Positions 1 through 63,991 of a DNA stretch of 64,000 nucleotides are shown one piece after another. Under the pieces are notes generated by a model. The model had not been told where the DNA came from, searched no databases, and worked only from the letters and a program-made list of their open reading frames with translations. A program made the translations under genes and the position numbers. Positions within the stretch are counted from its first letter, which is position 1. Each line of letters starts with the position of its first letter. Origin of the DNA: a virus; the IMG/VR virus record IMGVR_UViG_3300020205_005279, positions 25,051-89,050 of that record; one strand, given 5' to 3'.

Positions 1-872
1 AGGCCCTTGCCAAGATAAAATACGGAGCAACCTTGGTCGATCTCGCCCCGCGTGCACATAGAAATCTTATTGGCATACTCACGAGTGGGAAGAGTGAGAG
101 TATTACCACCGACCGAATCAATAACTTTTTTAATTGCTTCGTCAGGAGTAACTCCTTTGAAGCGGATGCTTCGGGGCAAAAGGCGTTTCTTATCGGGTTC
201 TGAGTTTGTGTTGGCGCAAAAAGAAACAGAGTAACCCATCTCTTCGGAAATGTCTTTAAGCACTTTTTCGATCTCAGCGCCTTCATCAAAGGCCATATTG
301 ACCAAGGATTGGTTGAAGAGCACAGAGCGGGCCTCGACGCCCCTTATAGTAACCGACGGGTACCTAGAGCCGTGGGATACCGAAAACCCATCCACTCTGA
401 AGTAGAAGTCGGTGCCAAAAGACGTTCCGCCCACGTCGTACCATAGAGAGAGCATGAGTAAGGCAAAGTTACCCTGTGCATTGACAGGGTCGTTTTTGTC
501 TACGTTTAGGTCTACGTACTTAACGCATTTATCTGCAATTGGATCCTGACCCTCAGTACAGGCTGGTAGTAAAATATTATTAGATGCTGCGATGGTAGAC
601 GCTGTGTAAATGCTGGCCGCGTCGTACAGAGCAGGCCACGCCAATCCGGTTAGATACGGATCGGAGATAGTGACCTGGCATTTAGATTGGTTGAGAAAGT
701 TTGTAGCGGCAGTGGGGGTTGTTGTGGAGTCTTGGTTGAGTTGTGAGAGTCCAGGTTCCCACTTAAGATCAACTGAGAGCTCTTGAATTTGCCGCTCATC
801 AAATACAATAAGCTGTTCCGACCTAAATGGTCGGTAGCCTACACGAGCTCTACAGCGATAAAGACTTGACAC
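1..872 (-). CDS. virion or baseplate-like protein, partial (C-terminus beyond window)
   Basis: The reading frame is open from a GTG at 870-872 to the window edge, about 290 codons. The frame is closed upstream by a TAG, and an out-of-frame ATG lies two bases before the GTG. A region about 220-275 residues in, containing IRFKGVTPDEAIKKVIDSVG, resembles the short STN-type fold (secretin and TonB N-terminus) in pattern: a helix ending in GYSVSF, then strands, then a helix. The rest is beta-rich with no motif I know. It starts 12 bases after the preceding gene on the same strand and so belongs to that operon. Expression as a virion or baseplate protein is inferred from context. Coding is well supported; function is unknown. 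Confidence 0.75.
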   Translation of the reverse strand, partial: MSSLYRCRARVGYRPFRSEQLIVFDERQIQELSVDLKWEPGLSQLNQDSTTTPTAATNFLNQSKCQVTISDPYLTGLAWPALYDAASIYTASTIAASNNILLPACTEGQDPIADKCVKYVDLNVDKNDPVNAQGNFALLMLSLWYDVGGTSFGTDFYFRVDGFSVSHGSRYPSVTIRGVEARSVLFNQSLVNMAFDEGAEIEKVLKDISEEMGYSVSFCANTNSEPDKKRLLPRSIRFKGVTPDEAIKKVIDSVGGNTLTLPTREYANKISMCTRGEIDQGCSVFYLGKG

Positions 873-883
873 ATTCTACTCGA

Positions 884-1705
884 TTAGTCAGTAATAGAAG
901 TTACAGTGGCAGTTGCCGGAGTTGTCTGAGTGGCTCCGGTCTGAGGAGCAACTGTGGAGATATTAAGCTGAACAACCTGGCCATTGATAAATCCTTCGCC
1001 AGGGACGGTGATAAGAGTGATCGAATCGATTTCGCCACCAATAATTTCCGCGGTAACTTCTGCCACGGCGTAATTGGAGGGATTAGTAACAGCAGTTGAG
1101 GAGACTACAAATACCACGTCTTCGGCCGTATCGTCCGTACCATCCACGGTAAATCCAGCGCCAGGGGTGGTGAGTGTTAGGGTGGCAATAGCCCCGCTAA
1201 TTGGAGTTTGTTCAGCCACTCTAGCGATCTCTTTAGCCAACTCATAGGTAGCAACCATAAAATTAAAGTCTTCTCCGTCGCCCTCTGCAATACCAACAAA
1301 CCTGGTGGTATTTACAAGAAGAGCATTGAGTATAGTAGCATCTGCAGAATATACGTCACCGTTATTAGCAAGAGCTTCTGTGATTAGTTCAAAGGCACCA
1401 TAGGCCGCTCTTTTGGCCTCAAACCCCATTGAAGGACCACAACCAATAAATGTCTCTACAAATTCTTCACGAATACTAGGGGTATTGCCGGGTTGATTGT
1501 AGCTGAAGATAGTGGGCCAGGATAGCGCGAATAAAAGAAAAGTTTGGAGTTTAATTTTATACTCAAATTGAATGCCAATAAGACGACGCAATTGACCCGC
1601 AGTAACCTCGAGTAGAAGAGGCGCACCAACTTTAGGACTAACAACACTTTCTAGATTGTCGGTAAGTAGTCTATACCCGAATAATTGCTGAGTTGTAATT
1701 GTCAT
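884..1705 (-). CDS. putative virion protein with glycine-rich beta repeats
   Basis: A 273-residue protein. The N-terminal two thirds are mixed helical. The C-terminal third contains two copies of a short beta motif (TPGAGFTVDG and VPGEGFINGQ) of the kind that recurs in cyanophage virion proteins. The ATG overlaps the stop of the upstream HExxH gene as ATGA, so the two are probably translationally coupled. The next gene starts 12 bases after its stop. No enzymatic motif is seen. A tail or baseplate role is inferred from the motif and neighbours only. Confidence 0.7.
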   Translation of the reverse strand: MTITTQQLFGYRLLTDNLESVVSPKVGAPLLLEVTAGQLRRLIGIQFEYKIKLQTFLLFALSWPTIFSYNQPGNTPSIREEFVETFIGCGPSMGFEAKRAAYGAFELITEALANNGDVYSADATILNALLVNTTRFVGIAEGDGEDFNFMVATYELAKEIARVAEQTPISGAIATLTLTTPGAGFTVDGTDDTAEDVVFVVSSTAVTNPSNYAVAEVTAEIIGGEIDSITLITVPGEGFINGQVVQLNISTVAPQTGATQTTPATATVTSITD

Positions 1706-2649
1706 TTTAAAAATTTAGGATGGGTAATCTCCGGGACTCGGAGTATAGACTCCCCTAAAGGAGTCAATTCGGCATGTCTTTTAATCTCTGCAAAAAGAGA
1801 CTTGGAGGCATCCGAAGTTATTTCTACAATAACTTTAAACTCCTTTGAATAAGGGGTAAGAGGAGAAACCAATTCTGAAAAACAGGCTTCGATGTTCTTT
1901 GAGACAAAATAGGCGTGAATAATACCATGCATAGGCCTGGTGTCCGAACGAAAAGCCGATGAAAACCTCTCATTGTCTGGATTGGTGCATAGGATTCCGT
2001 GTTCATTGCATATCGAAAATAGGGCCATGTGACAGGCCTCATGAACAAGTTGTTCAAAAAATTTAGGAAAAGTACCCAGGACTAGAGGGTTAAGTACAGT
2101 GGCTCCCCATAAAAAGAAATATGTAGCCCCACCAAAACTCAAGTTTTTTTGTTTTGAAAGATGGCCGGGGGAGGTAATGATAATTACACGGAGCATCTCT
2201 TCTACCAATTTGTGGTATTGAGGCGAATGAGAAGAAAGAAGATCTAGACTTTTATGTAAAGAATTTCGGCAGTATTTAATAACGCCCTCAGAGGGTTGTT
2301 CTAAGTCCAGAGGAAACGCAGCCTCAGTGGATAAAGTTTGAAAAATATTGTCCCACTCATAAGGGAAAAAAGCATTGGCGCCCCACTCCAAGATGGTAGG
2401 ATGAGCCGGGCGTTTAAGTCTTATAGAGTCCGAAAGAAAGGAAGTAGTTTTATTTACAGAATTTTCGTCCTCGTTGATTAATGCCTCAACCAAGTTTTTA
2501 TATGCTAAAAAGGTTAGAGGATGTGGAACGTCCGATAAAAAGTACTTATTTGCTTCTGTAGAAAAGATCTGATTTAAAGAATTATTTAAGTCATCAATTG
2601 TTAAAAGGTTGGCCTTTTGCCATCTATTAGCGCCCTGTGTAGTTACCAT
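1702..2649 (-). CDS. HExxH-motif protein resembling peptide-modifying (alpha-ketoglutarate HExxH type) enzymes
   Basis: A 315-residue protein. Residues 203-207 read HEACH, a perfect HExxH metal site inside the hydrophobic helix FFEQLVHEACHMALF. About 30 residues later comes FRSDTRPMHGIIHAYFV (233-249), which matches in layout the S-P-x-R-x-D-x-R-P-x-x-G-x-x-H/Q block of the HExxH domain found in RiPP-associated proteins. Members of that family are now described as iron/alpha-ketoglutarate peptide beta-hydroxylases. H241 or H245 could supply a third metal ligand. There is no signal peptide and no other protease signature, so a plain metalloprotease is the main alternative. It overlaps the next gene by 4 bases (ATGA). 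No precursor-peptide gene is obvious next to it; the substrate could be a virion protein or a host protein. Confidence 0.65.
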   Translation of the reverse strand: MVTTQGANRWQKANLLTIDDLNNSLNQIFSTEANKYFLSDVPHPLTFLAYKNLVEALINEDENSVNKTTSFLSDSIRLKRPAHPTILEWGANAFFPYEWDNIFQTLSTEAAFPLDLEQPSEGVIKYCRNSLHKSLDLLSSHSPQYHKLVEEMLRVIIITSPGHLSKQKNLSFGGATYFFLWGATVLNPLVLGTFPKFFEQLVHEACHMALFSICNEHGILCTNPDNERFSSAFRSDTRPMHGIIHAYFVSKNIEACFSELVSPLTPYSKEFKVIVEITSDASKSLFAEIKRHAELTPLGESILRVPEITHPKFLK

Positions 2650-2684: not shown

Positions 2685-3287
2685 TTACGATGCATTTAAA
2701 CATAATAGAAGGTTTGGTGGTTCACGGTATCCTGGATCAATGATTTTATGTGGAAGTAGAGAACGGTATTTTAAGTAGTCTTCCATATAGTCGTAGTAGG
2801 CGAGGTGCTCAGCTTCCCTCATTAGGAGTTGGTTGCGAATAAAATACGGTGTGGCGGCAGGGTATTGTTCTTTGATCTCTACAACATGATGGGGGCGACT
2901 CCATTCCCAGCTCCTCTTGACAAGAAAAACATGAACCTTAGAGGCCCTAGAGGAAAAATATGACTCGGCGGCAAAGGCCCATTCTTCTGAAATATTTACA
3001 TGACGCCGAAACTTATCATAAAAGGTAACTTCTGAAAAACCACGATCACAAATTACCACCTCGGGCATTGTATCTAACACCGCATCCAAGGGCTGGGTGT
3101 ACTGCTCAATGGGGGAGTTATGATGGGGTTGGGGCCCCGCAAAGTGGAGAACAACAGCGTCTGTACCTTTGTCCGTAAGTTGGTGCAGGGTATTAGAGAC
3201 GATGGTAGATTTGCCAACTCTATCGGCTCCTAGAACCACAATAATGGCGGGTTTTGTTGACATAAACAACTTAGGTGGGGTGGGCAT
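2685..3287 (-). CDS. P-loop nucleoside monophosphate kinase-like protein
   Basis: A 200-residue protein with Walker A GADRVGKST at residues 20-28 and a CDRG motif at 80-83, as in thymidylate-kinase-like dNMP kinases, where the DR pair contacts the nucleotide phosphate. The length fits that fold. The likely role is phosphorylation of a (deoxy)nucleoside monophosphate for phage DNA synthesis, although the lid region is divergent and a polynucleotide- or sugar-kinase role is possible. A second in-frame ATG at residue 9, just before the beta strand leading to the P-loop, is a possible alternative start (3263); neither start has a clear ribosome binding site. It lies 35 bases upstream of the HExxH gene, and an AGTACT palindrome lies about 100 bases ahead of it. 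Confidence 0.7.
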   Translation of the reverse strand: MPTPPKLFMSTKPAIIVVLGADRVGKSTIVSNTLHQLTDKGTDAVVLHFAGPQPHHNSPIEQYTQPLDAVLDTMPEVVICDRGFSEVTFYDKFRRHVNISEEWAFAAESYFSSRASKVHVFLVKRSWEWSRPHHVVEIKEQYPAATPYFIRNQLLMREAEHLAYYDYMEDYLKYRSLLPHKIIDPGYREPPNLLLCLNAS

Positions 3288-3947: not shown

Positions 3948-4688
3948 ATGGCTAGAAAATCAACACGGAAACAGCGCCAAATTCTAGACAACACCCTACT
4001 CACTGAGCAGGAAATCCCTAGTCCACGGTTTAACGAGCACAAGCCATTGCTTCCACGAAACCCGAACCAGGTAGATGCTATGAGATACCTGCGTACAAAA
4101 ACACTTACGCTCCTCTCAGGACCTCCGGGAACCGCTAAAACCCTTCTTGCTACTTACATCGCCTGCGAAAAACTCGCCAAAAGGGAAATAGATAAAATCT
4201 ATTACGTCAAACCTGTTGTGGACGTTCCTGGCGAGCAAGGTCTAGGCTTTCTTCCAGGAAACTTGGACGAGAAAGTCGCTCCGCACGTGGCCCCAATACG
4301 TGATGCTCTGGAAGTATTTATGCCAAAAGGCAAAGCTGAATACATGCTTGCTAAAAAACACGTTGAGTTCTTGCCCATAGACCATCTACGTGGTAGATCA
4401 TTGCATCGTTGTGTGGTCATTGCTGATGAAATGCAAAACGCTACCACGCATAGCCTATTGACAATTCTTACACGCCTTGGAGAAGGCTCGAGTATTGCTG
4501 TATTAGGCGACGTAGTTCAACGTGACCTTGGAAATCGGTTTGGCAAAGATGGTCTTTCCGATGCTCTTAATCGCCTTCGGTTTCTTCCAGAGGTCGGGCA
4601 CGTAGAGTTTGGCTTTGAGGACATTGAGCGGTCGCCATTTGTTCGGTCCGTCATTAAAGCCTACGCCGATCTTTACTCCTCTAAGTAA
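3948..4688 (+). CDS. phoH: PhoH-like ATPase
   Basis: A 246-residue PhoH family P-loop ATPase. Walker A GPPGTAKT is at residues 58-65, Walker B VVIADE at 156-161, and LGDVVQRD is the family's sensor region. Length and domain layout match single-domain phage PhoH. PhoH is a phosphate-starvation-inducible ATPase that is very common in marine and cyanobacterial phages; its biochemical role in infection is unsettled. The gene follows a terminator and precedes a promoter-like element, so it may be monocistronic. No strong Shine-Dalgarno is visible. Confidence 0.95.
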   Translation: MARKSTRKQRQILDNTLLTEQEIPSPRFNEHKPLLPRNPNQVDAMRYLRTKTLTLLSGPPGTAKTLLATYIACEKLAKREIDKIYYVKPVVDVPGEQGLGFLPGNLDEKVAPHVAPIRDALEVFMPKGKAEYMLAKKHVEFLPIDHLRGRSLHRCVVIADEMQNATTHSLLTILTRLGEGSSIAVLGDVVQRDLGNRFGKDGLSDALNRLRFLPEVGHVEFGFEDIERSPFVRSVIKAYADLYSSK

Positions 4689-4730: not shown

Positions 4731-7700
4731 ATGCCTAAGTCAAAAAGTGGCGGGAGACTAAAAATATCCAGGTCCCAACCACAACTCTTTTTTCAGCGCG
4801 AAAGTGCTGAAACTGAAGTCAAGTACTTTGGCTTAGAGCGGGACAATGCGCTGAATGATCTCGAGTCCAGGGATAAGGCCCTGGCCGAGGTTCTTCGAGA
4901 CATTCAAGATCCTGCAGAGGCTTCTACTCTTGGAACTTTTAACCCTACTGACCTTCAGATTCTCGACGGAGTCGAAAGATTTGATCTAAAAAAAGAAGAC
5001 TTTGAAATTCTTGTTGGCTCTTCTATAAACGCTCAAGATGATAATGGCGTGGCATCTGCCTTAGTTAATCCTCGCCAACGTATTTCTGATCGCATTGCCC
5101 AAGCTGAGCAGTTTGCCGGGCGAGGAACAAACTACCAAGGCCAGGGCACAGTACTTTATAAGTACTATGTGCCTGAAACTCAGCCCACCTCCTCGGCAAA
5201 TAAATACTCGCACACCAACCTCCCGCCATTCTTCACCGAGGCTATAACTTCCTCGTTAGAAAATTCCCCAGATTTTATCCCGGCCAACTCAGCGCAAATT
5301 GCTAATACTCACCGGCTTGGGTACATTGAAGACGGGGTTTTTGTCCCTCAGGTGGAGAACGAGTATTGGTGGAGTGGAGAATACGATACATATTTAAATG
5401 AAGTAAGCGAGTATGGTAACGCTACTGAAACTGCACTAACAAACCCCAAATTTCCTATTGTTCGCGATGGAAATATGAAGTTTGATCAAATACTTCCAAA
5501 GGGGATTAATACTCGTTATAATTGGGGGTTAAGATTTGACGCTTGGTTTAAAAGAGACTCTGACGCTGCCATAATGAGGTGGGCAGCGCAAGTTAACGGA
5601 CATCTCCGCATTGACTACTTTGATAAGAGCGGATACAATTCCACAACAGGGGCCGTAGAAGGGACTTGGAAAACTGCTCTTAATACGGCCGATGGTTCTA
5701 CTTATTACACTCAGTTTTCAAAAGAGATCCCAGTGCCCAGCCTTCTTGGAGGAAGGTTGTACTATGTTCAAGGTGGCCCAACCACCCCATTAGGAGCTGG
5801 AGATGGTACATTACCTACACAAAGATCAGAGGTTGATGGTTCTGCGTTAGACCTAACAAAAACCTATCTTGATAAAGAAGGAAACCCAATTAAAAATTTT
5901 GATGATGACTATGTTCCTGTTATTATCAGGTTTTGGTACGGTCAACCATCAACCGATCCGGCTCAGACAAATGTGCTAACAAAGCAACCTCTGGGCCCAG
6001 CAAGTTTTTTTATCGAGCTACTGGACACAAATCTTGCACTTATCGACCTTCCAAAATGGAATGACTATTCCGCCTCTATAAAACTCGGGTGGGATACTGC
6101 CACAAGCGCGTGGGTTGTTAATACCGGTGCCGGGGAAAGCGCAATTGGCGAGGCAAACTTTACCAACTTTAATGAAAACTTTGAAATTATTGCCCACACT
6201 CCCTTAGGAGCAACACAACCTGGAGCTCTATCTGGCTACACTGTACCCTCTATTGTGATTATTGCCACTAAACTCGCACCGGTACTCGGAGTTACCAGAG
6301 CCACGTTTAACATTAGTGGAATTAACCCAACAAACGGGCAAACAATTTGGGTGGTGGCTAGAAACCGTGTATTCAGTGTCATTCCAGGTGGTTCAAGAAA
6401 CAGAGATTCTCTCTGGCAAAACTACCTATTCAACCCCAGTCCAACGGACAAATACAGAAGCGCCGACGATCTTCTAGAGGGGGTAGGTGAGAATTATAAA
6501 GACCCAAACCCCGCAAAAGCTACATTTGAAGAAAATTTAGATTTATACAAAGCTACTTTTGGAAGTCTTCCAGCCCTTAGTACGTACACCTCAACTAGGT
6601 ATGATGGCACCCTGCCAAACTCCATAACAACTGCTAGCGCGCAAAGGGACTATGACTATAACCACGCAAAACTTCTAGCAATTGGCCGGCAAAAAAAGGG
6701 AACGACAGGAGAAGTAGGTACTACGGCCCCGTATTCTGGTAAGGATTTAGCGCCAGATGAGGTTCGTAAAGCCGGAGAAAACTACACATTTTTTGAGGTG
6801 GTAGAGAATGAAGCTGGGTTTGGTGGCAATGTAATAATTAATGCGTATCCGTCTAACGATCTTGGGGTTGTTAGTACTGCCTCAACGTCAACGTATGGCA
6901 AAGCGCTTCATATGTTAGATAATACCACAACGTTTTCCAACGCACTACGGCAAAATATCTCTACTGTACAACTTAACAGATTACCATCAGACGGAGATTT
7001 TGCTCTTACGCTAAAAATCCTCTATGAAGAAGTGGATGGGCAGGGAAGATTCAGTTACGGGTCCTGGAATGGTTCTTCTTGGACTTATGACAATACCGGG
7101 GTAATTGCCCAACTTGCAATGGGAGCAACTTCTAGAAATCATTCTTCTAAATCAGGATTTGTAGCAGAGTTTACCAAAGGGGTAAATAACTACGGATTTT
7201 ATGGGTTTGTGGGGGTGCAAAGAACATCGTTCCCAAGCGCGTCACTTACAGTAAATGCGGGAGATGTGTCAATTACATCTGCAGGAGGCATTTTCACTCC
7301 GGACTCAACTGGGTCTAACAATGATCAGTATATCGGCTCAGAAATTTATTTCCCTGGAGACGCTACTGTACGGAGAGTAACGTCATATGTTGCTTCTACG
7401 GGTGTCGTAACTTTTTCCCCATCTAAGCCTGCCGGGGTATATTCCAACTGCGAGGTGTACTACAACCACCTCCAACTCGGAGGAGTGTTACCATCGAGCA
7501 TTGTAACAAGCGCCGGGGCCCAAACTGTTAGAACAAGTATTATTCCCGTTCCAGGTGCCGGAAACAAAGTTGAAAGAATTGTTCAAATTCGATTTGTATT
7601 TAACGCTGCTTACCAGTACCTAAGGGCCGATACGGGCGCTGGGCTTAACTTTGGCGAAACACTCTACGTAAAATCTGCTTTAACCCCCACTGAGTCCCGA

Positions 7701-60827: not shown

Positions 60828-60899
60828 TGGGCGATACTGGACTCGAACCAGTGACTTACCACTTGTAAGGAGGCCACTCTACCGCTGAGTTAATCGCCC
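60828..60899 (-). tRNA. tRNA-Val (UAC)
   Basis: Acceptor GGGCGAT/ATCGCCC, D stem ACTC/GAGT, T arm ACTGG-TTCGAGT-CCAGT. Anticodon loop CTTACAA; one U-U mismatch in the anticodon stem. No encoded CCA. Confidence 0.9.
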
Positions 60900-60908
60900 G
60901 GGGGATAA

Positions 60909-60916
60909 CTTTAAAC
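60909..60916 (-). promoter_or_regulatory. GTTTAAAG element between tRNA-Leu and tRNA-Val
   Basis: GTTTAAAG read on the minus strand, ahead of tRNA-Val and the 60803 gene. No good -10 box follows; weak. Confidence 0.3.
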
Positions 60917-60921
60917 TTGAA

Positions 60922-61002
60922 TGCACGGAAGAGGACTTGAACCTCCATGCTGTTAAGCGGTAGCTTCTAAGGCTACTGTGTCTACCTTTCCACCACCCGT
61001 GC
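60922..61002 (-). tRNA. tRNA-Leu (UAG)
   Basis: Class II tRNA with long variable arm. Anticodon arm GTAGC-CTTAGAA-GCTAC, T arm GGAGG-TTCAAGT-CCTCT. Its 5' end overlaps the last 21 bases of the HNH endonuclease gene. Confidence 0.92.
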
Positions 61003-61455
61003 TAGAGGTGTTCTATTAGAGAACGTGGGCGTTTGAGAGTGGCAATTAGGGCATAAAAGCCTTAAATTGTCAACAGTGTTATTATAACATTGACCATCTA
61101 TATGGTCAACTTGTAGTCTTAAAAATTTACCGTTCCACTCGGAAGAAATGCCGCACTGTTCGCATTGTTCCCCGCTCTCTTGAACAAGAAGCCTATAAAT
61201 AACGCTTCTTTTACAGTTTTTACCTTTAGTTAGAACGTACTCTTGTAATGTAGGCCATTTGTTTCTCCCACCAAAATTTCTTATTTTGGCAGTATAATCA
61301 GGTCTATAGTTCGGAATCCACTTAGAAGTTCTGCGTCTAAGAGTGTCTGGTCGGCAATTTAACTCTAGACATAATTCTGTAGGAGTTTTGCTTCCAGATA
61401 GCAGACTATTTATTATATAGTCTTTTTTGTTGTCAATGTCCTTTCGCACTCTCAT
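60982..61455 (-). CDS. HNH homing-type endonuclease
   Basis: A 157-residue protein. The N-terminal half (about 10-90) is basic and helix-turn-helix-like (TELCLELNCRPDTLRRRTSK). The C-terminal half is an HNH nuclease with a zinc-like pair C98-C101, VDHIDG (116-121), N130 and CPNCH (135-139). It lies inside the tRNA array, and its last seven codons are the first 21 bases of tRNA-Leu. Free-standing HNH genes of this kind spread by cutting cognate sites in related phages. An inverted repeat lies 5 bases ahead of the start. Confidence 0.92.
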   Translation of the reverse strand: MRVRKDIDNKKDYIINSLLSGSKTPTELCLELNCRPDTLRRRTSKWIPNYRPDYTAKIRNFGGRNKWPTLQEYVLTKGKNCKRSVIYRLLVQESGEQCEQCGISSEWNGKFLRLQVDHIDGQCYNNTVDNLRLLCPNCHSQTPTFSNRTPLARVVER

Positions 61456-61460
61456 AATGG

Positions 61461-61476
61461 TAGACTTTATAGTCTA
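61461..61476. promoter_or_regulatory. inverted repeat before HNH gene
   Basis: TAGACT-ttat-AGTCTA six bases upstream of the HNH ATG; could be an operator or could sequester the start. Confidence 0.35.
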
Positions 61477-61512
61477 TAAACTATTTAGTTACCAATTCCG
61501 CCATTTGCGCAT

Positions 61513-61587
61513 ATGCTCCTTGTGAGGATCGAACTCACCTCACACGAATTATGAGTTCGTTGCATTCACCAGATTGCTAAAAGAGCA
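61513..61587 (-). tRNA. tRNA with CAU anticodon (Met or Ile2), copy 1
   Basis: Acceptor TGCTCTT/AGGAGCA (one G-U), anticodon arm ACGAA-CTCATAA-TTCGT, T arm TGAGG/CCTCA. Elongator Met versus lysidine-modified Ile cannot be told from sequence alone. Confidence 0.85.
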
Positions 61588-61589
61588 TA

Positions 61590-61763
61590 ACGATGGACTT
61601 ATCCGTATGCTATGTGGGCGCTACACCCAGTATACTGACAGTTTCCAACGGAGTAGGACGCAGTACCACCGCGAACATCCAAAGGGGGCTGATTCCAAAC
61701 TATGTGGTTTCAGTATATCTGAACCGTTTGGCACCTTTGCCTGGAACGTCTCAAGTTCCTAAT
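61590..61763 (-). ncRNA. candidate structured leader RNA of the tRNA array
   Basis: No gene is convincing here on either strand. Read on the minus strand, it contains a chain of hairpins: GGAAC/GTTCC, GGCA/TGCC, an extended arm CCAAAC/GTTTGG enclosing GGTTCAG/CTGAAACC, GGATG/CGTCC, and TGGGTG/CGCCCA with a 3-base loop. It sits between a TATAAT box and the first tRNA, so it would be transcribed as a 5' leader of about 175 bases. Confidence 0.5.
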
Positions 61764-61769
61764 ACAACT

Positions 61770-61791
61770 ATTATACTCCCTAAATGGCCTA
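61770..61791 (-). promoter_or_regulatory. sigma70-like promoter of the tRNA array segment
   Basis: GGAGTATAATAG on the minus strand with a perfect TATAAT (61770-61775); a TACATT lies 16 bases upstream as a poor -35. It could drive the leader RNA and downstream tRNAs. Confidence 0.5.
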
Positions 61792-61827
61792 AATGTACAC
61801 AATGTCTTTAGAGGACTTTTTGCCCTC

Positions 61828-62271
61828 TCATCGGCCCCGGGTGTTTCCTGGGATCTGCGGTGCGGGGTGGTGGGTTGGTGAGAAAAACTGACTAATGGGC
61901 CTTGCTTCGCCTATAATAAACCCGGCCGCTAATATAACCCCTGCAACAAGCCATCTCAATCGCGATAGTTCTCCGATGCGCTTGTCGTGGTCCTTGAGCA
62001 CCTCCTCAATCTCCTTAATTGAGTCGGCGTTTTGTTTTTTCATTTCATCAAGGAGCTTAATTATAGCAACGTCGGATTGTATGGCTTGTTCTAAACGTTC
62101 GTCGTGGCGGACGAGTATTTTTGAGATGTTTTGATTTGCTTCCGATATTTTATCTACAGCCAACTCAAGCTTTAAAAGCATTTCTTTTGTGAGTTCTTCA
62201 TAGACCATGAGTTTTTCTCCCAACACGGCCACTTGTATGTCCGGGCTTTGGGGGGTAAAAGGATTAGTCAT
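61828..62271 (-). CDS. coiled-coil membrane protein (XhlA/holin-accessory-like)
   Basis: A 147-residue protein: long amphipathic coiled coil (about 20-100, for example VDKISEANQNISKILVRHDE), then one transmembrane helix (about 106-121, RWLVAGVILAAGFIIGE) and a short Pro/His tail. This layout is that of XhlA-type hemolysin/holin accessory proteins. A lysis-related role at the inner membrane is inferred. It lies inside the tRNA array between tRNA-CAU copy 1 with its leader, and tRNA-Thr. Confidence 0.6.
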   Translation of the reverse strand: MTNPFTPQSPDIQVAVLGEKLMVYEELTKEMLLKLELAVDKISEANQNISKILVRHDERLEQAIQSDVAIIKLLDEMKKQNADSIKEIEEVLKDHDKRIGELSRLRWLVAGVILAAGFIIGEARPISQFFSPTHHPAPQIPGNTRGR

Positions 62272-62312
62272 TTGGTAATTAGTAATGCTCTTTATGGATG
62301 TCTTTCAACTAA

Positions 62313-62386
62313 AGCCTCCTGTCGGACTCGAACCGACGACCTACGGTTTACAAAACCGTTGCTCTATCCAGCTGAGCTAAGGAGGC
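62313..62386 (-). tRNA. tRNA-Thr (UGU)
   Basis: Acceptor GCCTCCT/AGGAGGC, D stem GCTC/GAGC, anticodon arm ACGGT-TTTGTAA-ACCGT, T arm GTCGG/CCGAC. Confidence 0.95.
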
Positions 62387-62388
62387 GG

Positions 62389-62461
62389 GGTGTACGAGCG
62401 GACTTGAACCGCCATAAACCAGTTCCACAAACTGGTGCATTAACCATTATGCTACGTACAC
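62389..62461 (-). tRNA. tRNA-His (GUG)
   Basis: Acceptor GTGTACG/CGTACAC, anticodon arm CCAGT-TTGTGGA-ACTGG, discriminator C as usual for His. G-1 is not encoded. Confidence 0.93.
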
Positions 62462-62462
62462 A

Positions 62463-62534
62463 TGGCAGTAATGAGATTTGAACTCATAATTCCGTCGTTA
62501 TGAATGACGGGCTTTACCATTAAGCTATACTGCC
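62463..62534 (-). tRNA. tRNA with CAU anticodon (Met or Ile2), copy 2
   Basis: Acceptor GGCAGTA/TACTGCC, D stem GCTT/AAGC, anticodon loop TTCATAA with four paired stem bases plus an A-C mismatch, T arm ATGAG/CTCAT. Differs throughout from copy 1, so the two probably read different codons. Confidence 0.88.
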
Positions 62535-62537
62535 GAG

Positions 62538-62627
62538 CGGAAGTGGTTGGATTTGAACCAACGGTGCCGGGATAACCGACACGGAATCTTAGCAGGATTC
62601 TGCGATAAACCACTCTGCCACACTTCC
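62538..62627 (-). tRNA. tRNA-Ser (GCU)
   Basis: Class II tRNA: acceptor GGAAGTG/CACTTCC, anticodon arm GAATC-CTGCTAA-GATTC, long variable arm, T arm GTTGG/CCAAC, discriminator G. Confidence 0.95.
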
Positions 62628-62630
62628 ATT

Positions 62631-62644
62631 TTGCCTTTCGGCAA
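62631..62644. repeat. tRNA spacer hairpin, copy 1
   Basis: TTGCC-TTTC-GGCAA between tRNA-Ser and tRNA-Arg. Related hairpins occupy the next spacers at 62723-62736, 62817-62831 and 62909-62922. Confidence 0.7.
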
Positions 62645-62645
62645 G

Positions 62646-62719
62646 CGCTCTCTGAGAGATTTGAACTCCCGACACCCTGGTCCGTAGCCAGGTGCTCTAG
62701 TCCGCTGAGCTAAGAGAGC
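62646..62719 (-). tRNA. tRNA-Arg (ACG)
   Basis: Acceptor GCTCTCT/AGAGAGC, anticodon arm CCTGG-CTACGGA-CCAGG, T arm GGGAG/CTCTC. The ACG anticodon would need A34 deamination by host TadA. Confidence 0.94.
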
Positions 62720-62722
62720 AAT

Positions 62723-62736
62723 TTGCCCGAAGGCAA
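62723..62736. repeat. tRNA spacer hairpin, copy 2
   Basis: TTGCC-CGAA-GGCAA between tRNA-Arg and tRNA-Glu. Confidence 0.7.
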
Positions 62737-62808
62737 TAGTCCATACGGGATTTGAACCCGTGCTGCCACCTTGAAAGGGTGGTGACCTGCCCGCTAGTCG
62801 AATGGACC
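62737..62808 (-). tRNA. tRNA-Glu (UUC)
   Basis: Acceptor GGTCCAT/ATGGACT (first pair G-U), D stem GAC/GTC as in bacterial Glu, anticodon arm CCACC-CTTTCAA-GGTGG, T arm ACGGG/CCCGT. Confidence 0.92.
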
Positions 62809-62816
62809 GTTATGGT

Positions 62817-62831
62817 TTGCCCTTTGGGCAA
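62817..62831. repeat. tRNA spacer hairpin, copy 3
   Basis: TTGCCC-TTT-GGGCAA between tRNA-Glu and tRNA-Gln. Confidence 0.7.
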
Positions 62832-62902
62832 TTCCGAGACTAGGACTCGAACCTAGGATAGCGGGACCAAAACCCGCTGCCTTACCACTTGGCTATCTCG
62901 GA
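62832..62902 (-). tRNA. tRNA-Gln (UUG)
   Basis: Acceptor TCCGAGA/TCTCGGA, anticodon arm GCGGG-TTTTGGT-CCCGC, T arm CTAGG/CCTAG. Confidence 0.94.
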
Positions 62903-62908
62903 AAAAAT

Positions 62909-62922
62909 GCCTCTGATGAGGC
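62909..62922. repeat. tRNA spacer hairpin, copy 4 (different stem sequence)
   Basis: GCCTC-TGAT-GAGGC between tRNA-Gln and tRNA-Ile; same size as the other spacer hairpins. Confidence 0.6.
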
Positions 62923-62925
62923 GAT

Positions 62926-62996
62926 TGGAACGACGAGACTTGAACTCGTGACCGCACGGTTATCAGCCGTGTGCTCTACCAACTGAGCTACGTTCC
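62926..62996 (-). tRNA. tRNA-Ile (GAU)
   Basis: Acceptor GGAACG/CGTTCC, D stem GCTC/GAGC, anticodon arm CACGG-CTGATAA-CCGTG, T arm ACGAG/CTCGT. Confidence 0.94.
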
Positions 62997-63001
62997 AGAG
63001 G

Positions 63002-63074
63002 TGGGAACAGTCGGAATCGAACCGACAACACCACGATCTTCAATCGTGTGCTCTACCGTTGGAGCTATGTTCCC
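63002..63074 (-). tRNA. tRNA-Phe (GAA)
   Basis: Acceptor GGGAACA/TGTTCCC, anticodon arm CACGA-TTGAAGA-TCGTG, T arm GTCGG/CCGAC. Confidence 0.94.
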
Positions 63075-63077
63075 TGG

Positions 63078-63150
<73 letters not shown>

Positions 63151-63153
63151 ATA

Positions 63154-63245
63154 TACGCCGTGCCGGAATCGAACCGACTATCTTACGGATTACGTGGTAA
63201 TCCAGCTCCATTGTCTGGGTGTCCTTACCAATAGACTACCGGCGC
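63154..63245 (-). tRNA. tRNA-like element with long variable arm, anticodon unclear
   Basis: Acceptor GCGCCGG/ACGGCGT (six pairs, one wobble), D stem GTCT/GGAC, T arm GTCGG-TTCGATT-CCGGC. The anticodon arm is CCAG/CTGG with a nine-base loop ACAATGGAG and no U at the usual position 33. A seven-pair variable arm GGATTAC/GTAATCC follows. A degenerate tRNA-Ser (GGA) is one reading; the alternative arm GGATT-ACCACGT-AATCC would show CAC. Confidence 0.55.
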
Positions 63246-63457
63246 GGGCGAGGGTATCCACCTACAATGTGCGAGTTACTTGGCATTTTGTTTAAATCCA
63301 GACAACTTAGTTGAACTGAATCTAAACTCCATTATCTAAGCACTTTCGCCATTCTATGATGTGGTTTAGGGGACCCTTCGTTTAAGCCCCCGTTCCTTGG
63401 AGGACCCTTGGTGGCCACCGGCACTCCAGATTATCAGCTCTGGCGCAAAGTGGCAAG
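63246..63457 (-). ncRNA. possible structured non-coding stretch between tRNA-like element and tRNA-Pro
   Basis: No convincing gene. Minus-strand hairpins include CCAGA/TCTGG, the palindrome GGTGGCCACC (63410-63419) and GGGG/CCCC. An eight-base direct repeat GGACCCTT occurs at 63371 and 63402 (plus strand). It may be part of a larger RNA with 63530-63913 that has tRNA-Pro embedded, but that is only an inference. Confidence 0.35.
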
Positions 63458-63529
63458 TCGGGGTGGGAGGGATCGAACCTCCGACATCCTGCTCCCAAAG
63501 CAGGCGCGCTACCGCTGCGCTACACCCCG
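63458..63529 (-). tRNA. tRNA-Pro (UGG)
   Basis: Acceptor CGGGGTG/CACCCCG, D stem GCGC/GCGC, anticodon arm CCTGC-TTTGGGA-GCAGG, T arm GGAGG/CCTCC. Confidence 0.95.
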
Positions 63530-63913
63530 AGATGCCCCGATTTTACACGTGAAACGTCTCAAGGACGGACAGAGGTGGGGGCTTGCTTTCAGCAGGGCCT
63601 GCATATTGGCCGGTAAGAGCGTTCGCTCCAGCAACACCAATGGCAAAACAGCCCTCAAGAAAGCACCACATATTAACGCCTGTGTTCGTGGCCGTGGCGG
63701 GAACTTAACGACGTATTCCATACGACTCCGGAGTCTAGAACGGAGAGTTTGTGGTGAGGCAACAGTTAAAGACTGCTGACAACCTTGACTCTATTAAAGC
63801 CAAGGGCCTCTCACAATATGCCAGGTTTCAATTTTTATCACCCAGGATTATGGAAACCTGTAAGACGGCATCCTGGGATTTTGGGTTTAGGAGTTAAGAA
63901 CTCCGCACCCCAC
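63530..63913 (-). ncRNA. candidate structured RNA with H-type pseudoknot
   Basis: A 384-base stretch without a supportable gene. Read on the minus strand, it begins with hairpin GGAGTT-CTT-AACTCC (63890-63904). Next is an H-type pseudoknot: stem 1 CCCAGGAT (63870-63877) with ATCCTGGG (63841-63848), stem 2 CAGGTTTC (63853-63860) with GAAACCTG (63822-63829), all eight pairs perfect in both. Then GAGGC/GCCTC encloses two hairpins (CCTTG/CAAGG and CAGCAGT/ACTGTTG). Further on are CGTAT-GGA-ATACG, the palindrome GACTCCGGAGTC (63724-63735), GAGC/GCTC and GGCC/GGCC hairpins. It lies between tRNA-Asn and tRNA-Pro, both on the same strand, so it is probably co-transcribed. Confidence 0.6.
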
Positions 63914-63983
63914 TGGCCCGGCAGGGATCGAACCTGCGACAACTTGATTAACAGTCAAGCGTTCTACCGCTGAACTACAGGCC
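63914..63983 (-). tRNA. tRNA-Asn (GUU)
   Basis: D stem GTTC/GAAC, anticodon arm CTTGA-CTGTTAA-TCAAG, T arm GCAGG/CCTGC. The acceptor stem has five good pairs and two weak ones. Confidence 0.92.
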
Positions 63984-63991
63984 ATTGAATA

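Follow-up and report, generated by a model that had tools for sequence, protein, structure and literature searches.

What does a protein with a metal-binding HExxH motif do among the virion genes of a phage? The question is raised by a 64,000-nucleotide stretch of viral DNA (the window), which covers positions 25,051-89,050 of the 89,050-base IMG/VR record IMGVR_UViG_3300020205_005279. The gene is an open reading frame (ORF) of 315 codons that runs from 2649 to 1702 on the minus strand of the window. An original prediction, made from the DNA letters, held that its product resembles the HExxH hydroxylases of ribosomally synthesized and post-translationally modified peptides (RiPPs) and that it could modify a virion protein or a host peptide. 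On sequence and predicted fold, we assign the product with high confidence to the Fe(II)/alpha-ketoglutarate HExxH-type (aKG-HExxH) peptide hydroxylases, related to a picocyanobacterial lineage. The enzyme's gene overlaps with a downstream gene for a virion structural protein, whose N-terminal tail is the most likely substrate.

The gene product belongs to the aKG-HExxH family

The 315-residue protein (1702..2649, minus strand) was matched by hmmscan to TIGR04267, 'aKG-HExxH-type peptide beta-hydroxylase', with 46.6 bits (curated cut-off 40; E = 3.6e-12), over positions 2-174 of the 177 in the profile. At the genome level the enzyme again exceeded the cut-off (47.7 bits), which was passed by none of 14 control genomes. 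The HEACH metal-binding motif is located at residues 203-207 (2029..2043, minus strand) and the RSDTRPMHGIIHA motif at residues 234-246 (1912..1950, minus strand). The segment FRSDTRPMHGIIHAYF, about 30 residues past HEACH, contains R234, D236, R238, P239, G242 and H245. In an alignment of 36 homologues, G182, H203, E204, H207, R234, D236, R238, P239, G242 and T296 were invariant, and the phage enzyme has all of them. The two family hallmarks, the HExxH metal motif and the R-x-D-x-R-P-x-x-G block, are both present, and given the TIGR04267 score HEACH is, at the level of sequence, more than a chance HExxH. When the phage protein was combined with four relatives from picocyanobacteria in one profile, ChlH, which has the same block, was found in the PDB by sequence alone (E = 4.6e-5).

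An AlphaFold2 model built with 36 homologues had a predicted local distance difference test (pLDDT) score of 80-97 over most of residues 120-305, with a dip to about 71 near residues 171-180. The best match among solved structures was the ChlB HExxH domain (8s5f, ChlH, from Chlorogloeopsis) with a Z of 19.4 over 205 residues at 2.8 Å, and SjiH (22ob) followed with 16.6, whereas the first zinc peptidase reached 6.5 and unrelated folds at most 6.8. In Foldseek, the aKG-HExxH matches had E values of 2.1e-8 and 1.5e-4 and all others were above 0.7. The enzyme is predicted to adopt the distinct fold of the ChlB HExxH domain, which it resembles in fold, HExxH and R-x-D-x-R-P-x-x-G-x-x-H-A blocks, but it is a stand-alone protein and about 18% identical. 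A search of BFVD gave no viral fold match below 1e-3.

The nearest cellular relatives are found in Cyanobium and its kin. In the tree the phage enzyme was placed on a long branch as sister to four picocyanobacterial enzymes (support 99/93), with which it shares 24-27% overall identity. The family assignment is made because profile, phylogeny and fold all support it; they bear out what had been proposed from HEACH and the adjoining block. The original prediction was also right on the extent of the ORF, although it did not mention the minus strand, and a zinc peptidase or a phage fold as the best structural match, which it had named as the outcome that would count against it, did not appear.

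The gp112 homologue carries a precursor-like N-terminal extension

The stop of the enzyme gene overlaps with the start of the next gene in the four nucleotides ATGA (1702..1705, minus strand), as read from the sequence. This downstream gene (884..1705, minus strand) encodes a 273-residue homologue of gp112 of cyanophage S-TIM5, assigned by tblastn (37.7% identity, E = 2e-28), synteny and alignment, and S-TIM5 gp112 is annotated as a virion structural protein. In front of the conserved GPSMGF block the protein has 88 residues, compared with 54-67 in about 45 relatives, and alignment to S-TIM5 gp112 placed the surplus in the first 27 residues (MTITTQQLFGYRLLTDNLESVVSPKVG; 1625..1705, minus strand). 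The roughly 45 relatives, all of which lack the enzyme, also lack the extension.

The extension contains a leader-like motif, LFGYRL, at residues 8-13 (1667..1684, minus strand) and a core-like motif, SVVSPKVG, at residues 20-27 (1625..1648, minus strand), which is the candidate modification site. In the AlphaFold model of the gp112 homologue the pLDDT was below 50 for residues 1-28 and the remainder was confidently folded, as would be expected if the extension were a flexible tail that an enzyme can reach. A fold search with this model returned generic helical bundles only. When the extension was used in a loose tblastn search, it found one small ORF immediately before the hydroxylase gene in picocyanobacterial genome G066 and another beside the hydroxylase gene of Cyanobium CH-040.

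Similar peptides adjoin the picocyanobacterial sister enzymes

The closest enzymes are encoded in seven picocyanobacterial genomes (Cyanobium CH-040, locus L017; ATX 6A2, locus L018; G066, G120, G663, G668 and G688), and in a sample of 400 genomes of the host family the clade was present in 7. In all seven, small unannotated precursor-like peptides adjoin the enzyme gene. They have the leader LFGF(K/R/Q)L followed by the core S-A-x-(S/T)-A-K-V-G-x-E-P or close variants, with SALSAKVG, SAVSAKVG and SALHPKVG at the positions of the phage SVVSPKVG; no core residue is better conserved among hosts and phage than the lysine that is Lys25 in the phage. Four of the loci were inspected first, and G688, G663 and G668 were found afterwards with the enzyme profile; in each of these three a motif peptide lies directly upstream of the enzyme gene, for example MTVTRASLFGFRLAAEATAPAAASALSAKVGGPEP. 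The LFGF-leader peptides are encoded at L144:9521-9766 (minus strand), L145:5870-6283, L017:7020-7295, L018:206-460 and 464-673, L161:6537-6779, L162:1701-2012 and L163:1-243, the ATX 6A2 locus having several of them. None of the seven host peptides tested matched NCBIfam. Judged by their sequences, these peptides beside aKG-HExxH genes are possibly a new RiPP class.

The peptides also emerged when no motif was preset. A first all-against-all comparison of small host ORFs was dominated by ribosomal genes and was repeated with same-strand ORFs near the enzymes. The motif peptides then appeared as a conserved set, and the start of the phage gp112 homologue was linked to four of them; the other top pairs were by appearance housekeeping or antisense ORFs.

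An AMP-binding enzyme is encoded in the sister loci as well, accompanied in several by a phosphopantetheine carrier protein and in one by a GNAT. The hosts have free precursors in this setting, whereas the phage has no more than the enzyme and a segment of precursor joined to gp112. By analogy with acylated cyanobacterial RiPPs, the host product may be lipidated. At least two of the loci encode a conserved protein of about 350 residues without a Pfam match, located beside the AMP-binding enzyme (L018:3520-4581, L017:8947-9963), with an apparent homologue in L145.

A more distant enzyme clade is accompanied by peptides with LHGFRL..SAIGAKIG. In genome G044, two peptides with LHGFRL and AKIG are encoded near a TIGR04267 gene of this second clade (L164:8385-8582 and 4762-4992, both minus strand). 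Three small ORFs with PGEGG and (S/A)KIGxGEGG repeats in genome G170 (L146:5326-5559, 6458-6658 and 6856-7041) are upstream of a distant TIGR04267 gene, an AMP-binding/carrier protein gene and an ATP-grasp-like gene; from their repeats they are a probable further RiPP precursor family. On a conjugative plasmid of Streptomyces hirsutus (L016:5422-12186) an aKG-HExxH gene was observed beside genes for a ThiF-family adenylyltransferase, a TldD-related peptidase and a lantibiotic dehydratase.

The extension is recognised by host-only profiles

The main profile was made of eight host peptides, with the phage left out, and searched against the 1,928 six-frame ORFs of the phage. The ORF of the gp112 homologue ranked first of the 1,928 with an E of 4.5e-5, and the next ORF had 1.1. 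The same profile found nothing among 15,249 ORFs of relative phages. The extension scored 25.5 bits, compared with 9.3 bits for the best of 40,000 shuffles.

Three of the hosts had first been reached via the phage sequence, and a held-out profile was made of four that had not. It found the start of the phage gp112 homologue with an E of 2.7e-5, the next being 1.2. A profile from three hosts only was weaker (E = 0.0069). In leave-one-out runs the scores were about 27 to 49 bits for the omitted host peptides and 22 to 27 for the phage, so that the ranges overlap.

A proposed modification of the gp112 homologue

The aKG-HExxH members described in the literature depend on Fe(II) and alpha-ketoglutarate and hydroxylate precursor peptides at His, Asp, Phe, Gln or Pro (PMC12636437, PMC13060819, PMC12707348). 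PflC and PosC from Pseudomonas are stand-alone like the phage enzyme; they need the N-terminus of the substrate as a leader and can cut the peptide chain by oxidation at small residues (PMC12636437). They act on free precursors, which have nitrile hydratase-like leaders and Gln/ARMD cores, whereas the candidate substrate in the phage is a protein of the virion whose tail bears LFGYRL/KVG.

The best reading of these sequences, which we consider likely, is that the phage acquired a peptide hydroxylase along with the matching precursor, that this precursor became fused to a protein of the virion, and that the enzyme hydroxylates the fusion. The tail of the gp112 homologue would then be a captured RiPP-type precursor, with LFGYRL as the leader and SVVSPKVG as the following core. 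The ATGA overlap suggests coupled translation of the enzyme and the gp112 homologue from a single mRNA. The conservation of the leader in the hosts points to a binding of LFGYRL by the enzyme, and by analogy with the family a residue of SVVSPKVG would be oxidised, most likely by beta-hydroxylation near the invariant Lys25. A less likely and more speculative course would be an oxidative cleavage at a small residue, for example Gly27, which would leave a gp112 of the length found in ordinary relatives. The altered protein may be assembled into the particle, as the annotation of S-TIM5 gp112 would lead one to expect. On balance, we favour the wider view that a lytic phage adapted a RiPP pathway of bacteria to the modification of its virion: leader and core are joined in frame to a structural protein of the tail region, and during assembly this protein is hydroxylated, or trimmed by oxidation, by the captured oxygenase.

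That the enzyme stands among virion-like genes and could act on a virion protein had already been proposed. Both genes downstream of it are indeed homologous to genes that carry a virion structural annotation in S-TIM5, and the proposal gains independent support at the sequence level from the precursor-like extension of the presumably translationally coupled gp112 homologue. The usual RiPP arrangement, a precursor with leader and core beside the enzyme, was found only in an altered form, with the motifs fused to gp112. There is no room for a free-standing precursor gene beside the enzyme, the gap upstream being 35 nucleotides and the overlap downstream four. No Nif11 leader, carrier protein or radical SAM enzyme was found in the 89-kilobase (kb) phage record. 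A carrier-protein role, similar to that in nonribosomal peptide synthesis and prompted by the AMP-binding and carrier genes of the hosts, was rejected, the phage record being without a carrier. Because no free precursor is present, the locus was not filed as a RiPP cluster; in function it seems to resemble one whose precursor has been attached to a protein of the virion.

Alternative explanations

The enzyme might cleave the gp112 N-terminus after the core, oxidatively or hydrolytically in the manner of a maturation protease, and leave no hydroxyl. Backbone cleavage at small residues is known from PflC and PosC, PflC is capable of hydrolysis as well (PMC12636437), and the KVG end of the extension is the point where the shorter S-TIM5 gp112 starts. 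The nearness to the ordinary N-terminus may be a coincidence, though, and for other characterised members hydroxylation but no cleavage has been reported (PMC13060819, PMC12707348), so we hold this course to be rather unlikely. An auxiliary gene whose product acts in trans on host precursor peptides or carrier-bound amino acids, with the gp112 extension as a relic of the capture, would fit the host clusters, where an AMP-binding enzyme and in several cases a carrier protein or a GNAT are encoded beside the hydroxylase and precursors, and host metabolic genes are common in cyanophages. However, with the enzyme clade so rare in the host family, the pathway would be missing from most hosts, and the 89 kb lack the carrier protein, radical SAM and Nif11 components. 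A relic should also have lost its motifs, but the extension retains both in phage-like codons. We consider this explanation unlikely.

It is very unlikely that the enzyme hydroxylates some other phage or host protein and that the resemblance of gp112 arose by chance. The motifs are short and the single-sequence matches weak, but within the phage the motifs occur in a single ORF, and it is this ORF that overlaps with the gene of the enzyme; the shuffles and held-out profiles speak against chance. An ordinary zinc metallopeptidase is extremely improbable. The HExxH, the zincin-like core, a sub-threshold SprT-like match in the Pfam scan (11.9 bits against 25.6) and the zincin Z values of up to 6.5 would point to it, but the TIGR04267 score is above the cut-off, the R-x-D-x-R-P-x-x-G block is invariant in the family and the closest structural matches were the two aKG-HExxH enzymes rather than a peptidase family.

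Several points weigh against a hydroxylated gp112 tail itself. Single pairwise phmmer searches with the phage N-termini did not reach genome-wide significance, the best E being 0.03, though four matches converge. The hosts have E-P after KVG and the phage core has none. The branch of the enzyme is long, with 3.0 changes per column, and the alignment used for the model contained family members, so that fold and profile do not count as two fully separate lines of evidence. One phage is known with the enzyme, and the link between enzyme and extension therefore rests on a single acquisition. The full genome is likely near 170 kb, and further partners may lie outside the 89-kb record.

The phage and its gene neighbourhood

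The phage is an S-TIM5-like cyanomyovirus. Its tail sheath is 50% identical to that of S-TIM5 (Aurunvirus), and its head, tail and polymerase genes match phage families. The order gp113-gp112-gp111 is the same as in S-TIM5 and S-TIM54, the homologues being 53%, 40% and 29% identical. The gp113 homologue upstream of the enzyme gene (2685..3287, minus strand) is P-loop nucleotide-kinase-like (phrog_761, E = 4.3e-7). The window contains the N-terminal part (3..872, minus strand) of the gp111 homologue, a protein of 1,228 residues with PHROG tail and baseplate matches which runs beyond the window. PhoH (gp115 in S-TIM5) is alongside as a syntenic landmark at 3948..4688 on the plus strand (PF02562, E = 1.3e-53).

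The gap between gp113 and gp112 is 30 nucleotides in S-TIM5, and in this phage the enzyme gene occupies the spot, starting 35 nucleotides after the gp113 homologue. Judged by this gene order it is a clean insertion between the two homologues, and a misassembly is unlikely because synteny is kept on both sides and the genes overlap. The codon usage of the enzyme gene is phage-like (r 0.58, inside the range of the phage's own genes), whereas r is negative against Cyanobium genes, and its content of guanine and cytosine is 39.6%, compared with 70% and 62% in two Cyanobium loci. From codon usage and base composition the gene is probably an old, adapted resident of the phage. The phage-like codons and base composition and the intact catalytic residues were counted as signs that the gene is maintained.

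At the other end of the window 16 predicted tRNA genes are clustered (60828-63984); one prediction, a tRNA-His of 92 nucleotides with anticodon ATG (63154-63245), was probably miscalled.

Distribution of the enzyme among viruses

A protein scan, three alignments and a DNA motif scan of IMG/VR contigs yielded no further viral copy, although the pattern scans are limited in sensitivity and absence is unproven. The DNA motif scan returned ten stretches, none of them a relative of the enzyme. A tblastn search of 50,697 phage records with three family members gave no copy, none of the S-TIM5-like contigs examined had the enzyme near gp112 or gp113, and 18 whole records gave no TIGR04267 match above the cut-off. 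S-TIM5 and about 45 relatives differ from this phage in having neither the enzyme at this place nor the extension. Weak TIGR04267 matches in five related phages (L132-L136) were rejected as relatives; in these proteins of about 400 residues, a lone HExxH is combined with a C-terminal domain of the DTSGSVD type (von Willebrand-like).

Implications

The published family members considered here act in bacterial RiPP pathways, and no other viral member was present in the collections searched. The analysis also reveals an unannotated RiPP-like precursor family of picocyanobacteria with an LFGF leader and a SAKVGxEP core. If the proposed modification is true, a virus would direct the oxidation of its own particle via a RiPP leader-and-core tag. 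RiPP leaders would then be movable onto folded proteins in nature, and the phage would offer a test system in which the enzyme and its substrate are encoded side by side.
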